From Erysipelotrichales bacterium (GTDB taxonomy: Bacteria; Bacillota_I; Bacilli_A; RF39; UBA660): a stretch of DNA of 40,840 nucleotides. The notes under the pieces were generated by a model. It had not been told where the DNA came from and did no database searches. It saw nothing but the letters and a program-made list of their open reading frames with translations. The stretch spans positions 1 through 40,840 of the forward strand of contig JAFLUY010000010.1 in NCBI GenBank assembly GCA_022508565.1, given 5' to 3'. Positions 1,570-39,056 of the stretch are shown here, in pieces. The position numbers were made by a program, and so were the translations under genes. How positions within the stretch are numbered: the first letter of the stretch is position 1; every line of letters begins with the position of its first letter.

Positions 1570-1642
1570 GCTACTTTAGCTCAGTTGGCAGAGCGTCGGA
1601 CTGTTAATCCGCAGGTCCCTGGTTCGAGCCCAGGAAGTAGCG
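1570..1642 (+). tRNA. tRNA-Asn (GTT)
   Basis: Canonical cloverleaf: acceptor GCTACTT/AAGTAGC, D-arm AGCTCAGTTGGCAGAGC, anticodon stem CGGA/TCCG around CTGTTAA (anticodon GTT), T-arm CCTGG-TTCGAGC-CCAGG, discriminator G1642. CCA is not encoded. It starts eight bases after the endonuclease stop codon. Confidence 0.96.
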
Positions 1643-1650
1643 CTAAAAAT

Positions 1651-1814
1651 CTCCAAACTGTGGTGGAATTGGTATACACTAGTGATCAACCGGAAATCAT
1701 CCCGGAATTACTTTGTCAGATGAAATCCAATCTGGCTGCGAAATTGTTTCGTGAATCGTATAGCATTATTTATGCAAATATCTCTCTTGGTTCAAATCCA
1801 AGCAGTTTTTGGAG
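1651..1814 (+). ncRNA. oversized tRNA-Leu-like RNA
   Basis: The 5' part reads like a leucine tRNA: acceptor-like strand ending AAACTG, then TG and the D-arm GTGGAATTGGTATACAC (1663-1679). The 3' part has a perfect T-arm, CTTGG-TTCAAAT-CCAAG (1786-1802), followed by CAGTTT. Outer bases extend the pairing: CTCCAAACTG (1651-1660) against 1803-1814 with a two-base bulge. At the expected anticodon-stem position, AGTGA (1681-1685) pairs with TTACT (1708-1712), but it closes a 22-base loop holding its own CCGG/CCGG helix. A 73-base region with three hairpins (1717-1734, 1739-1751, 1763-1775) replaces the variable arm. It may be a functional tRNA-like RNA, an interrupted tRNA or a decayed one. No anticodon can be assigned. 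Confidence 0.5.
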
Positions 1815-1853: not shown

Positions 1854-2920
1854 TGGGGGATATCTTCAATAACATCTAAATTATTATTGCTTAAGAATTC
1901 TCTAGCTTCATCTCTAAAATCTTTAGCAAACTTATTATTGACATCATCTACCCATTTGATTTCGAAGTTATCTTTTTCATTATTTAGTGAAGTAAATATC
2001 AACCTATATTTTACATCTTCTATATTGACTTTTCCGGAGATATCTTTAATTAGATTCACCTCAACAATCATTCCTCCTTTTGTATCTTTAGCTTTATGAT
2101 AATTTCTTTTCATACAAGATACAAAATTTCCTAATGAATATACTATTAATTTATCATTTTCAAATATTATAGGTTGAATTACATGAGGATGAGTGCCAAT
2201 AATTGCATTTGCTCCAAAATCTAAAATTTGTTTTGCTAATTTCTTTTGTTCTTGTCCAGGAATAAGTTCATGTTCTTTTCCCCAATGAAGACATACAAAT
2301 ATAAATTCTGCTCCTTTTTCTTTAGATTTTTTAATATCCACTTCAATTTGTTTTATATAAATAAAATCTACAATACTATTTACGTATCTTCCGTCATTTG
2401 GTTTTGGATCAGCAGTTTTATATGTATAATTTAAAAAAGCGATTTTAATATTGTTTATTTCTTTAATAAATGGAGTCTTTAAAATCTTTTCGTATGTATC
2501 TTTATAAGTACCAATATGATCTAATCCTCTTTGGTCAAGTGACCATAAAGTCGTCATTATTCCATCTTTGGTTTGATCCTGTGCATGATTGTTAGCAGTT
2601 AGAAATAAATTGAATCCGGCTTTTTCTAATTCATCAAGATAACTTTCAGGAGCCCAAAATATTGGGCGCGATTCCTTTTTAGTAAAATATTCTTGAGAAT
2701 GTATTGGAGTTTCAAGATTTACAACGGAATAATCATGAGACTTAATATATTCAGATATGTTATCATAATATCCTGAAAAATCATAAGTCGAACCATTTTT
2801 AGCCTTTTCTAATTGTTCAGGACGTGCCATTGCATCTCCAACAAACAATATTGAAGCTTTTGAATCGTATTTTATATAAGAATTGGACTGTTCAATAATA
2901 AAATCTTTTAAAGAAATCAT
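1844..2920 (-). CDS. CapA-family metallophosphatase-like protein with capsid-targeting-like N-terminus
   Basis: The 358-residue protein matches the PGA_cap/CapA family, a calcineurin-like fold found in poly-gamma-glutamate synthesis. Visible motifs are GDAM (28-31), NLETP (68-72), TANNH (108-112), LHWGKEHE (211-218) and GTHPHV (242-247), covering the predicted metal ligands. There is no signal peptide or membrane anchor, unlike capsule CapA proteins. The N-terminus MISLKDFIIE matches the tag shared by many genes here, with I-x-E at 8-10. Its start overlaps the stop of the upstream minus-strand gene by four bases (ATGA type), so the two form an operon. A capsid-packaged phosphohydrolase is my inference; the substrate is unknown. 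Confidence 0.85.
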   Translation of the reverse strand: MISLKDFIIEQSNSYIKYDSKASILFVGDAMARPEQLEKAKNGSTYDFSGYYDNISEYIKSHDYSVVNLETPIHSQEYFTKKESRPIFWAPESYLDELEKAGFNLFLTANNHAQDQTKDGIMTTLWSLDQRGLDHIGTYKDTYEKILKTPFIKEINNIKIAFLNYTYKTADPKPNDGRYVNSIVDFIYIKQIEVDIKKSKEKGAEFIFVCLHWGKEHELIPGQEQKKLAKQILDFGANAIIGTHPHVIQPIIFENDKLIVYSLGNFVSCMKRNYHKAKDTKGGMIVEVNLIKDISGKVNIEDVKYRLIFTSLNNEKDNFEIKWVDDVNNKFAKDFRDEAREFLSNNNLDVIEDIPQNS

Positions 2921-4182
2921 TCTTCTAAATCTTCGTATTCTTTTTTAATCTCATCAACTTTTTCGTTTGTTAATGGTTTAATATTATTGATTTCTAAAAA
3001 TTTCTTTATAGTTTCTACTTCAAAGAATTGATTTGGGCCAATATTATATTTTAATATGATATCTCTTTCTGCTTTGGTCATCTTATCGACCATTTTATAT
3101 CCTCTGAAATAATCTACATCTCCAGACCAGCAACCAAGACGATCAGTGTTTATAACAGATCTTTTGCATCTCATTAATTGAGAAAATATAGATTTATCTG
3201 TATAGTCTGAACCTTTTACTAATTTTTTAAGTTTATCAAATGCTTCACAAAAATCGTATTGCAAACAATAATAACATGCAATATACGACATAGCAATTTT
3301 AAAATACGAATTAGGTTTTTGATCATCAATAAGATTAAATGTATTCCAAATAGCTAGTCCTTCATCGAATATATTTTTACCATCTAATCCAAAAACAAAT
3401 AAGAATAATCCTGTCTCGTATCCGTAATATCTTTTTGCAACATGTGATTGAATTTCATGAGCGACTAAAGATTTTATATCCACTTCAGAAAATTTTGCAT
3501 GAGACCTAATTCTAAAAGTTTTTTCTGGATTGACTCCCATACGAGGAAGCATATTAGGTTTTATAACGATTTTCCAATCATAACCAAGCTCATCTAATTT
3601 TTTCTTGATTTCTTCTGCCGCTTCTTTTGCTCCAAGTACTTTTTTATATTTTTCTTCTGTAGGTTCTTTGTATGGATGTTCTTTAATTATTTTTTCTGCT
3701 TCATCTACCAATTCTTTATCAAAACTTAATAGTTTATCAGTAATGTCGGGTTGAAAATCTCTATCATCTAAAGTTTTGAGATAATCAATCTTATTTAATA
3801 TTCCCTCTAAATTATCTATATAAAATTTTGTAAGATAACAATTCAAATTTCTAAATTCTTTAATTAAGGATTTTGTTCTGGTTTCTAAATTATATTCTTT
3901 CCATTTTAATGGTTTATGATTTAATGTAGGATAATATTTTATTCCTTTTTTAATATAATTTAATTCGAATTTTTCCCATTCATCTTCTTTATTCGAAACT
4001 TCACGAACAATAGTTTCATATCGGGCGATAAGCATTAATTTACCGTATTCTAAATCTAATTCAAGAAGTCTTTTCTTGTCTTTATTAGAAAGCTTCAAAT
4101 ATTCATCTTCATAAGATTCTTTAATTAAATCGGATATACTATTTAAATTTCTATCTATGGCAAATTCATTAAAACTTTTCAT
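2917..4182 (-). CDS. DUF1704 (MATCAP/tyrosine carboxypeptidase-like) zinc metallopeptidase, tagged N-terminus
   Basis: Of 421 residues, the C-terminal half carries the HExxxH motif HEIQSH (242-247) in LVAHEIQSHVAKRYYGYETG, followed by DEGLAIWNT (273-281). This pair is the signature of DUF1704 proteins, the family that includes the tubulin carboxypeptidases MATCAP; the downstream Glu (E274) is the expected third zinc ligand. The first 180 residues are helical and Lys/Glu-rich. It starts MKSFNEFAID, a divergent form of the tag with Asp at position 10. It is the first gene of a two-gene minus-strand operon with the CapA-like gene. Phage role unknown; removal of C-terminal residues from a host protein is a guess. 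Confidence 0.75.
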   Translation of the reverse strand: MKSFNEFAIDRNLNSISDLIKESYEDEYLKLSNKDKKRLLELDLEYGKLMLIARYETIVREVSNKEDEWEKFELNYIKKGIKYYPTLNHKPLKWKEYNLETRTKSLIKEFRNLNCYLTKFYIDNLEGILNKIDYLKTLDDRDFQPDITDKLLSFDKELVDEAEKIIKEHPYKEPTEEKYKKVLGAKEAAEEIKKKLDELGYDWKIVIKPNMLPRMGVNPEKTFRIRSHAKFSEVDIKSLVAHEIQSHVAKRYYGYETGLFLFVFGLDGKNIFDEGLAIWNTFNLIDDQKPNSYFKIAMSYIACYYCLQYDFCEAFDKLKKLVKGSDYTDKSIFSQLMRCKRSVINTDRLGCWSGDVDYFRGYKMVDKMTKAERDIILKYNIGPNQFFEVETIKKFLEINNIKPLTNEKVDEIKKEYEDLEE

Positions 4183-12052: not shown

Positions 12053-13138
12053 ATGAATAAAGTAGGAACAAGAGCTTTTGGAGTCAAACTTCCAATTATT
12101 AAACAAGGAGACAATCTTATCGATATTATTGTTAAAAATCTTAGAAAAGATACCGATAATTGTGAATATCAGTTAGAAGAAAATGATATTTTTGGATTGA
12201 CCGAATCTATCGTCGCCAGAGCTTATGGACAATATGTTACGGTGGATGATGTCACAAATTGGCTAATCAAACATTTTGATATGAATATGGGATCAGTTAT
12301 CGTTTTTAATCCTATATTTTCGCGTAATAGATTTTCAATCATTCTTAGGGCTATTGCGAGAGCATTCCATAATATTATATTTGTTATGGATGATATAGAT
12401 GAAGTTGGTAATCATATTAAGCATGATATAACAAAAGTAAATTATATTGATCTTTATAAAAATATTTGTGAAGAAGAATCTTGCGGATTTGGACATCTAA
12501 ATTTTGCGCAGTTCGAAGAGTTGTCACATAATCTTAGAAATACTCCTATTGTTGATTGTACGCTTCATGGAGAATTGTATAATTATCCTATGTGCATAAC
12601 TGCTTTTCCTCATATAGTGTCATTAAAAGACATTTGCAACAATTCCTCAGAATGGGGGCTTCTTGGTTCAAATAAAATGGGAGAAGAACTTCTCAAACTA
12701 TATCCAGATAGTCGTTATCAAGAATTTGTAGATGAACTTAGAAATAAAATTTGTGAAGAATTCGAATTGAACAATGTTGACGTAATGATTTACGGAGATG
12801 GGTGCTTTAAAGATGCTGATTCTGGCATTTGGGAATTCGCTGATCCGGTAGTTTCTCCTGCTTATACAAAAGGCCTAGAAGGAGGTCCTGCAGAACTTAA
12901 GCTTAAATATCTCGCTGATGATGAATTTAAGAATCTATCTGGAGATAAATTAGAAGAAGCAATTAAGAATAGAATATCTAATAAGAATGTTGAACAAGGA
13001 GAAATGGAAACTCAAGGAACAACTCCGAGAAAATATGTGAATCTTCTTGGATCACTTATGGATCTTGTTTCCGGATCAGGCGATAAAGGAACTCCGATGG
13101 TCATTGTTCAGAACTATTTCAACAACTACAGTTCGTAG
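12053..13138 (+). CDS. coenzyme F420-0:L-glutamate ligase-like protein
   Basis: The N-terminal 210 residues match the CofE/FbiB-N fold: GTRAFGVKLPIIKQGDNLIDIIVKNL, then LEENDIFGLTESIVARAYGQY, the hallmark of the F420_ligase family (PF01996). The C-terminal part, YGDGCFKDADSGIWEFADPVVSPAYTKGLEGGPAELKLKYLAD, resembles the long form found in Firmicutes and related bacteria that do not make F420, so the true reaction may be another gamma-glutamylation or amide ligation. Length is 361. The gene is monocistronic, followed by a series of hairpins, and its codons are less AT-biased than its neighbours'. I know of no usual role for this family in phages. Confidence 0.8.
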   Translation: MNKVGTRAFGVKLPIIKQGDNLIDIIVKNLRKDTDNCEYQLEENDIFGLTESIVARAYGQYVTVDDVTNWLIKHFDMNMGSVIVFNPIFSRNRFSIILRAIARAFHNIIFVMDDIDEVGNHIKHDITKVNYIDLYKNICEEESCGFGHLNFAQFEELSHNLRNTPIVDCTLHGELYNYPMCITAFPHIVSLKDICNNSSEWGLLGSNKMGEELLKLYPDSRYQEFVDELRNKICEEFELNNVDVMIYGDGCFKDADSGIWEFADPVVSPAYTKGLEGGPAELKLKYLADDEFKNLSGDKLEEAIKNRISNKNVEQGEMETQGTTPRKYVNLLGSLMDLVSGSGDKGTPMVIVQNYFNNYSS

Positions 13139-37793: not shown

Positions 37794-39056
37794 ATGAAAA
37801 CAATAGAAGGATATGATATTAAGATCTTCACAGATAATATTGAAGATGAAGCGATAAATCAGATAAAGAATTTGGCCGAACTTGAGCCTTTCAAAGATAA
37901 GAAATTTAGATTCATGCCAGATTCGCATGCCGGATCAGGTTGTGTCATCGGAACAACCGTAGATCTTGGAGATAAAGTAATCCCTAATATAGTCGGAGTT
38001 GATATAGGTTGCGGTGTTCGAGTTATAAACCTCGGAAAAATTGATAACTTATCAGAAGAAACTCTTCATGATTTCCATAACTATATAAACACATTTGTTC
38101 CCTCAGGAATGAATATCCGAAAAGATCTTACAACATTTCCGAAGTCGATGACTAATGACTGCATAGAGATATATAAAGAAGCTAAGAATATTCTTACAAA
38201 TCTATATTGTTATAGAGATCTTAAGAATGTTGAACGACTTCGTATGGCTATTGGGAGTCTCGGTGGCGGCAACCACTTTATATCCATAGAAAGATCTGAT
38301 GATGGTGATAATCATATTCTTATCCACACAGGTTCACGAAATCTTGGAAAACAAGTTGCTGATATATATCAGAACAAAGCCATTAAACATCTGACAGATG
38401 GAGAAGATGAGTTCAACCAACTTATTAAAGATACTATTCAGAAGATGAAAGATGAAGGTAGACGTTCTGAAATTCAAGCAGTCATAGCTAAGATGAAGAA
38501 GAATCATAAAGTTGCTGAGCCAAAATATCCGAAAGATCTCTGTTATGTTGAAGGTGAAGAACGCGAACAATATCTCCATGATATGAGACTTTGTCAAGAT
38601 TGGGCAGTTCTTAATAGAAAACTTATTGGAATGATTCTGACAAACTTCTTCGGGGTAACTCCTATAGAAGAATTCGAATCAGTTCATAATTACATTGGAG
38701 ATGATAATATTATTCGCAAAGGTGCTATATCAGCTTATGAAGGAGAAAAATGTATTATTCCTATGAATATGCGAGACGGATCTCTGATATGTGTCGGGAA
38801 AGGAAATGAAGATTGGAATTTCTCAGCACCTCATGGAGCAGGTCGAATAATGTCTCGTTCAAAAGCTTTTGAAAATATCTCTATAGATGAATTTGTACAA
38901 TCCATGCGAGGAATAAACACCTGGTCAGTTAACGAAAGCACTATCGATGAATCTCCGATGGCTTATAAACCTATGCAGGAAATCATAGACAATATAGGAG
39001 ATACTGTTGAGATTGTTAAGATAATCAAACCTATTTTCAATTTTAAAGCGTCTTGA
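37794..39056 (+). CDS. rtcB: RtcB RNA-splicing ligase
   Basis: The 420 residues carry RtcB signatures: MPDSHAGSGCVIGTT (41-55), VGVDIGCGVR (68-76, Mn ligand D70 and C73), GSLGGGNHFISIE (near 152-164), ILIHTGSRNLGK, and the GMP-accepting His347 in SAPHGAGRIMSR. The enzyme joins 2',3'-cyclic phosphate and 5'-OH RNA ends with GTP and Mn. In a phage with its own tRNAs it likely repairs tRNAs cut by host anticodon nucleases. No tag; codon use is less AT-rich than that of the flanking tagged genes. Three bases separate it from the gene before. Confidence 0.96.
   Translation: MKTIEGYDIKIFTDNIEDEAINQIKNLAELEPFKDKKFRFMPDSHAGSGCVIGTTVDLGDKVIPNIVGVDIGCGVRVINLGKIDNLSEETLHDFHNYINTFVPSGMNIRKDLTTFPKSMTNDCIEIYKEAKNILTNLYCYRDLKNVERLRMAIGSLGGGNHFISIERSDDGDNHILIHTGSRNLGKQVADIYQNKAIKHLTDGEDEFNQLIKDTIQKMKDEGRRSEIQAVIAKMKKNHKVAEPKYPKDLCYVEGEEREQYLHDMRLCQDWAVLNRKLIGMILTNFFGVTPIEEFESVHNYIGDDNIIRKGAISAYEGEKCIIPMNMRDGSLICVGKGNEDWNFSAPHGAGRIMSRSKAFENISIDEFVQSMRGINTWSVNESTIDESPMAYKPMQEIIDNIGDTVEIVKIIKPIFNFKAS

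Follow-up and report, generated by a model that had tools for sequence, protein, structure and literature searches.

The DNA analysed here, referred to as the window, is an entire contig of 40,840 bases within a bacterial genome bin of 1.69 Mb and 37 contigs. Judged by the proteins that it encodes, the window is a contig of a large gut-type phage. Its topoisomerase II subunit is closest to those of Prevotella Lak megaphages (49% identity) and then of Sphingomonas phage PAU (39%), and an endolysin and an RtcB ligase are also encoded. The gene order at the left end is a cut tRNA, tRNA-Met, tRNA-Pro, a DUF559/intron-nuclease-like gene, tRNA-Asn, and the element at 1651-1814, which is the last gene of the tRNA cluster and is present in one copy in the contig. 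The features of the element and of its surroundings are as follows.

1570..1643, plus strand: ordinary tRNA-Asn, called by ARAGORN and Rfam, just upstream of the element
1651..1654, plus strand: CTCC, 5' side of a stem that prolongs the acceptor, pairing with 1811-1814 across a UU bulge (sequence and folds)
1654..1660, plus strand: acceptor 5' strand CAAACTG, paired with 1803-1809 at 6 of 7 positions, C1 and U72 being mismatched
1661..1680, plus strand: Leu-type D-arm TGGTGGAATTGGTATACACT with A14 and G18G19, stem of 3-4 bp (1662-1665/1677-1680)
1681..1712, plus strand: stem AGTGAT/ATTACT replacing the anticodon arm, strands 1681-1686/1707-1712, pair probabilities 0.71-0.90
1715..1736, plus strand: hairpin GTCAGAT/ATCTGGC replacing the variable arm, pair probabilities 0.95-1.0
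1738..1752, plus strand: hairpin GCGAAA/TTTCGT, predicted fold
1763..1775, plus strand: hairpin GCAT/ATGC, predicted fold
1786..1802, plus strand: T-arm CTTGG TTCAAAT CCAAG, 5 of 5 pairs, consensus TTCRANY loop
1803..1814, plus strand: acceptor 3' strand CAGTTTT, then U73 and GGAG, without CCA (sequence)
2917-4182, minus strand: phage protein with a match to the MATCAP (microtubule tyrosine carboxypeptidase) domain, E 6e-19
12053-13138, plus strand: phage protein with a match to F420-0:gamma-glutamyl ligase, E 1e-33
37794..39056, plus strand: phage RtcB ligase, PF01139, E 4e-59, 36 kb from the element

A preliminary description of this DNA had named a D-arm and a T-arm separated by 105 nt, pairing ends, an inner stem with its loop, and three hairpins, and all of these were found where it had placed them. 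The 22-base loop inside the AGTGA/TTACT stem holds a CCGG/CCGG helix (1690-1693/1702-1705) and offers no 7-nt loop with U33, and the three hairpins occupy the 73 nt 3' of the stem (1713-1785). The word "perfect" suits the T-arm but not the acceptor, in which C1 faces U72.

ARAGORN and Rfam at normal thresholds called the neighbouring tRNAs but not the element, and the tRNA model RF00005 (29 bits) gave no match at 1651-1814, either at gathering or with E up to 10. Compared with tRNA-Leu (class II), the element has the consensus D-arm and T-arm (GTGGAATTGGTATACAC; CTTGG TTCAAAT CCAAG), including A14 and G18G19, together with acceptor-like pairing. In contrast to tRNA-Leu, it has U73 for A73, six instead of seven acceptor pairs, and the 73-nt region in the place of a variable arm of 10-20 nt; a 5-bp anticodon stem with a 7-nt loop and U33 was found neither directly nor after one deletion. 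With introns allowed, ARAGORN proposed a tRNA-Thr(CGT) with a 61-nt intron, which we rejected on the Leu-type body and the non-canonical arm. ARAGORN in tmRNA mode and Rfam were both negative for tmRNA. The element shares with tmRNA a design idea, namely a tRNA-like end domain and a middle other than an anticodon arm, but it is far shorter, has a normal D-arm, and neither a tag reading frame nor pseudoknots were identified in it. Group I introns are about 200 nt or longer, so the size of the element bears out the earlier remark that it is too short for one, and there were no Rfam matches; the group I intron in tRNA-Leu(UAA) also interrupts a tRNA-Leu, but in the anticodon loop. An archaeal-type BHB intron, defined by two 3-nt bulges on opposite strands flanking a 4-bp helix at the splice sites, was likewise rejected, the window having a 3 x 1 internal loop, the 4-bp CCGG helix, and an 8-nt loop.

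An oversized frame like that of the element, defined by a tRNA-type D-arm, a 5-bp T-arm, and at least 6 of 7 acceptor pairs, occurred in 0 of 200 dinucleotide-shuffled windows. The whole element folds better than its shuffles (z = -2.97; 2 of 200 equally good), and its middle on its own has a z of -2.32, the third among 58 frames described below. Without constraints, the D-arm and the T-arm pair with each other in the minimum-energy prediction; a fold with the tRNA frame is weaker than this minimum by 1.1-1.8 kcal/mol, a difference that is inside the model error and leaves out tertiary contacts.

Two exact-pattern scans of IMG/VR, each for a Leu-type D-arm followed by a T-arm at an abnormal distance, returned at least 57 further oversized Leu-type frames of 118-162 nt, ordinary tandem tRNAs aside; the patterns fix letters of both arms, and the counts are samples. 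Most of these frames have 7 of 7 acceptor pairs, though the acceptor was absent from the search pattern. Among the matches listed, 75 candidates are not called as tRNAs by ARAGORN; in 58 of them, window included, at least 6 of the 7 acceptor positions pair and the T-stem has no fewer than 4 of its 5 pairs. With a generic D-arm pattern, at least 65 additional oversized frames came up. Taken together, the Leu-type and generic frames indicate that oversized tRNA-like genes are common in phages. A single deletion restores a tRNA-Leu in 10 of the 58 Leu-type frames (mean of 1.3 in shuffles), and no single deletion does so in the other 48, which include the window. We call type B those RNAs that have a Leu-type D-arm, a T-arm and a pairing acceptor, are longer than 100 nt, and yield no tRNA by a single deletion; the pattern that collected them demands intact D- and T-arms. 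By its sequence, the window copy is type B with reservations: its acceptor has 6 of 7 pairs because of C1.U72, it has U73 and no CCA, its terminal stem is longer, and it has no close homologue.

Several observations bear on whether type B is maintained. In one family of five members with similar middles, the acceptor stems are altered on both strands (AGCAAGG/CCTTGCT, AGTTAGG/CCTAACT, GGTCAAG/CTTGACC, AGTCAGG/CCTGACT). In addition, the frame AGTCAGG...ACAGG TTCGAAT CCTGT CCTGACT occurs in three contigs, in 8, 6 and 5 copies, around middles that are unrelated and vary greatly in length; one of these contigs also holds 26 ordinary tRNA calls, two of them tRNA-Leu. The repeats share the constant frame AGTCAGG ... 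ACAGGTTCGAATCCTGTCCTGACT, reach a number of eight in one contig, and lie at the following positions.

L077:984-3290
L010:2223-5802
L108 3515-5060 (minus strand)

The middles of 50 type-B RNAs are better folded than their shuffles (mean z -0.68, t -5.5); for the AGTCAGG-frame middles alone, structure was not significant (t -1.5). A search of 84,980 bacterial and archaeal species genomes with a slightly narrower Leu pattern gave, among the matches listed, one genuine type B, in a Parabacteroides isolate, the middle of which equals that of an IMG/VR locus (L139). Type B is therefore close to phage-specific. The bacterial matches were mostly a truncated 5' half of tRNA-Leu followed by a complete tRNA-Leu in Flavobacteriaceae, and the acceptor test alone can therefore mislead. 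The two-sided acceptor changes, the repeated frame, the folding of the middles, and the near-absence from prokaryote genomes suggest that type B looks maintained rather than decayed. As a separate observation, the arrangement in which a tRNA-Leu 5' half directly precedes a complete tRNA-Leu (L417-L460, mostly Flavobacteriaceae chromosomes) is kept across many genera; the half is possibly an attenuator or an integration relic.

Searches for homologues and for synteny found no close homologue of the window element, which we count against the explanation favoured below. The D-arm of the window shares 22 identical nt with a tRNA-framed RNA of L010, and the nearest look-alike, L010:5641-5802, has a similar hairpin (GTCCGAT/ATCGGGC vs GTCAGAT/ATCTGGC in the window), with weak similarity between the middles (z of about 2.4). 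The synteny queries were the topoisomerase, two neighbouring proteins (PGA_cap and MATCAP families), and RtcB. ARAGORN called no tRNA in the flanks of about 10 kb around three relatives of the topoisomerase (L002-L004); the complete records, searched as DNA, gave marginal, chance-level matches only. The queries with the neighbouring proteins and RtcB led to no usable orthologous locus. The first 25 kb of two Lak megaphage genomes contained no tRNA and no frame, with one Leu-D-arm-like motif each.

Among described RNAs, RNA C (139 nt) and RNA D (119 nt) of phage T4, the species 1 and 2 RNAs, come nearest to the element. Like it, they close a phage tRNA cluster; they are late-expressed, confirmed by Northern analysis, and of unknown function (PMC9697503). 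RNA C has, as does the element, a perfect 3' T-arm (CCGGG TTCGAAT CCCGG) and a long non-tRNA middle, but its acceptor is poor and it lacks a clear D-arm of the Leu type, and RNA D is without a T-arm; neither RNA showed sequence similarity to the window. In the cultured Sphingomonas phage PAU, PAU_8, annotated as a two-piece tRNA-Ser (AGA), is also oversized (141-143 nt) and last in its tRNA cluster, and its acceptor GAAACTG/CAGTTTC is close to CAAACTG/CAGTTTT of the window; unlike the window, it has a generic D-arm and a different middle, and at 45 bits it reaches the Rfam tRNA threshold. Searches of an open-access literature collection found no description, as a class, of type B or of the inserts treated below as type A. 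The oversized Leu-frame RNA type is apparently undescribed so far, and the best reading is that the element belongs to a recurrent phage RNA type to which T4 RNAs C and D come closest.

On balance, we take the element to be a small tRNA-like RNA by which a large phage decodes nothing, most likely a tRNA mimic or a decoy for a host factor. The earlier proposal of a tRNA mimic agrees with this and, if taken broadly to cover any tRNA-like RNA that does not decode, has become the best reading. The same design recurs in many unrelated phages. The element retains the acceptor and elbow parts of a Leu-type tRNA (D-arm, T-arm and pairing ends), and independent hairpins substitute for the anticodon and variable arms. 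It would presumably be transcribed together with the phage tRNA cluster, the tRNA frame may supply processed ends, and the tRNA-like elbow may confer stability and visibility to tRNA-handling proteins. Action would then proceed via the elbow surface and the RNA's own hairpins. Bacterial LeuRS is not known to read the anticodon, and this may be the reason that a foreign middle is tolerated in Leu-type frames; for the window copy, U73 argues against charging with Leu.

The usual view of phage tRNAs is that they are translation helpers. Phages seem to use the tRNA shape also for RNAs that read no codon. We tentatively propose the wider idea that phages commonly carry tRNA-framed non-decoding RNAs, the window RNA included and in some genomes with several copies, in which a constant acceptor and elbow with a replaceable and often hypervariable middle would serve as a scaffold for stable regulatory, decoy or guide-like RNAs. 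If many phage "tRNA genes" cannot decode, tRNA counts are wrong and annotation is missing for a large set of RNAs in phages; the T4 stable RNAs C and D, an old puzzle, would also gain a comparative setting.

The strongest competing explanation, which we nevertheless regard as rather unlikely, is a decaying tRNA-Leu gene, the middle of which was replaced through insertion or recombination and the acceptor of which is now eroding. It would account for the C1.U72 mismatch, U73 and the missing CCA in a single copy that lies last in its tRNA cluster and has no homologue found, and pseudo-tRNAs are frequent in phage tRNA clusters; pseudo-tRNA genes are reported for Erwinia jumbo phages (PMC7760394). 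Against it stand the consensus D-arm and perfect T-arm, a middle whose folding ranks near the top in the set of 58 frames, the additional 4-bp terminal stem that was kept or gained, and the dozens of unrelated phages that retain the same design with intact acceptors. The preliminary description had held that the pairing is too good for random decay: the z values of the element and the mean of its class favour this, but because of the C1.U72 mismatch, U73 and the missing close homologue, decay of the window copy keeps a share of the probability.

A more specific form of the favoured mimic or decoy reading is a decoy for a host anticodon nuclease or another tRNA-cutting defence. An elbow without a usable anticodon, together with the hypervariable middles of related RNAs, would suit a decoy repertoire, and phage tRNAs counter defence systems that act on tRNAs, according to a published account (PMC11555353). 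The known counter-measures, however, are ordinary phage tRNAs and not non-decoding RNAs, and no nuclease or defence system is linked to the element here. Decoy action is our leading guess for the function, but this particular version of it seems unlikely.

It is improbable that the element encodes a tRNA-Leu interrupted by one or several small introns that are removed via a phage or host route. Such a tRNA with a small removable insertion had been suggested earlier, with a possible link to RtcB, but no single deletion in the window yields both a canonical anticodon arm and a Leu variable arm, U73 is unsuited to tRNA-Leu, and the BHB arrangement is absent. RtcB is encoded in the window yet far from the element, and among 122 virus records it was present in 0 of 46 with oversized Leu-type frames (a few restorable ones included). 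It was also present in 2 of the 29 records whose oversized tRNAs are generic, most of them with inserts in the anticodon stem, and in 1 of 47 control records. RtcB-linked splicing of the element is not supported, there being neither a single-deletion product nor enrichment of RtcB. In favour of an intron, the anticodon CAA could be read after U1686, a stretch in the middle of the element is similar to the AGCATTAT...AAATCTC section of L315 (z 4.3), and inserts restorable by a single deletion are frequent in other phage tRNAs and conserved in cultured jumbo phages.

These inserts were found among the generic frames, 38 of 65 of which give a canonical anticodon arm with U33 after deletion of one block (0.6 expected from shuffles). 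The insert is mostly at position 28/29 of the anticodon stem and about 40-60 nt long. We call phage tRNAs that carry such an insert in the anticodon stem type A; the window was absent from the matches to this class (stem 27-31, one block of about 40-60 nt deleted near 28/29). Type A inserts carry at least two groups of motifs, RCAGCAA and GTTACTT. The RCAGCAA insert, of about 49 nt with a varying hairpin, is conserved in tRNA-Lys-like genes of jumbo phages, namely cultured GAP32 (Cronobacter), CBB, BF (Serratia), SNUABM_50 and XbC2 and an assembly of Vibrio phage D479, and its deletion restores a paired arm. These genes are annotated as ordinary tRNAs (in CBB as Phe), and passages of two papers on cultured jumbo phages count tRNA genes with no mention of inserts (PMC5259590, PMC7760394). 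The positions of the two groups are as follows.

L335:905-1026: tRNA-Lys-like gene with insert
L411:1501-1627: tRNA-Lys-like gene with insert
L412:596-715: tRNA-Lys-like gene with insert
L413:594-715: tRNA-Lys-like gene with insert
L414:602-723: tRNA-Lys-like gene with insert
L415:601-722: tRNA-Lys-like gene with insert
L219:4351, L272:783, L317:445, L322:4101, L234:1727, L285:1073 (matching-strand coordinates): GTTACTT-ending anticodon-stem inserts

The GTTACTT group apparently folds differently from the RCAGCAA group. Judging from their sequences, type A inserts behave as real small introns or tolerated inserts, and the tRNA-Lys class in cultured jumbo phages raises the question of how a bacterium removes or tolerates an anticodon-stem insert of about 50 nt. 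In most of the 10 restorable Leu-type frames, the insert is in the anticodon loop.

Three minor observations concern related genes. The anticodon-loop inserts of five tRNA-Leu genes among the restorable frames (L181:2416, L165:7383, L157:2206, L147:8516, L208:1697) end in CCA and resemble a small or armless tRNA, that is, a tRNA nested in a tRNA. In five oversized RNAs with a Leu D-arm (L144, L150, L152, L173, L154), the anticodon arm is normal, with a YTGTCTC loop and GTC as anticodon, position 73 is G, and the variable region measures 75-82 nt; it is possible that they are tRNA-Asp with a giant variable region. In a Bacillus phage phi3T/SPbeta hybrid, a laboratory phage (L380, about 1496-1630), a Leu-like frame that carries no annotation and spans about 135 nt, AATGCGG ... 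CCGCATT, was recognized by eye.
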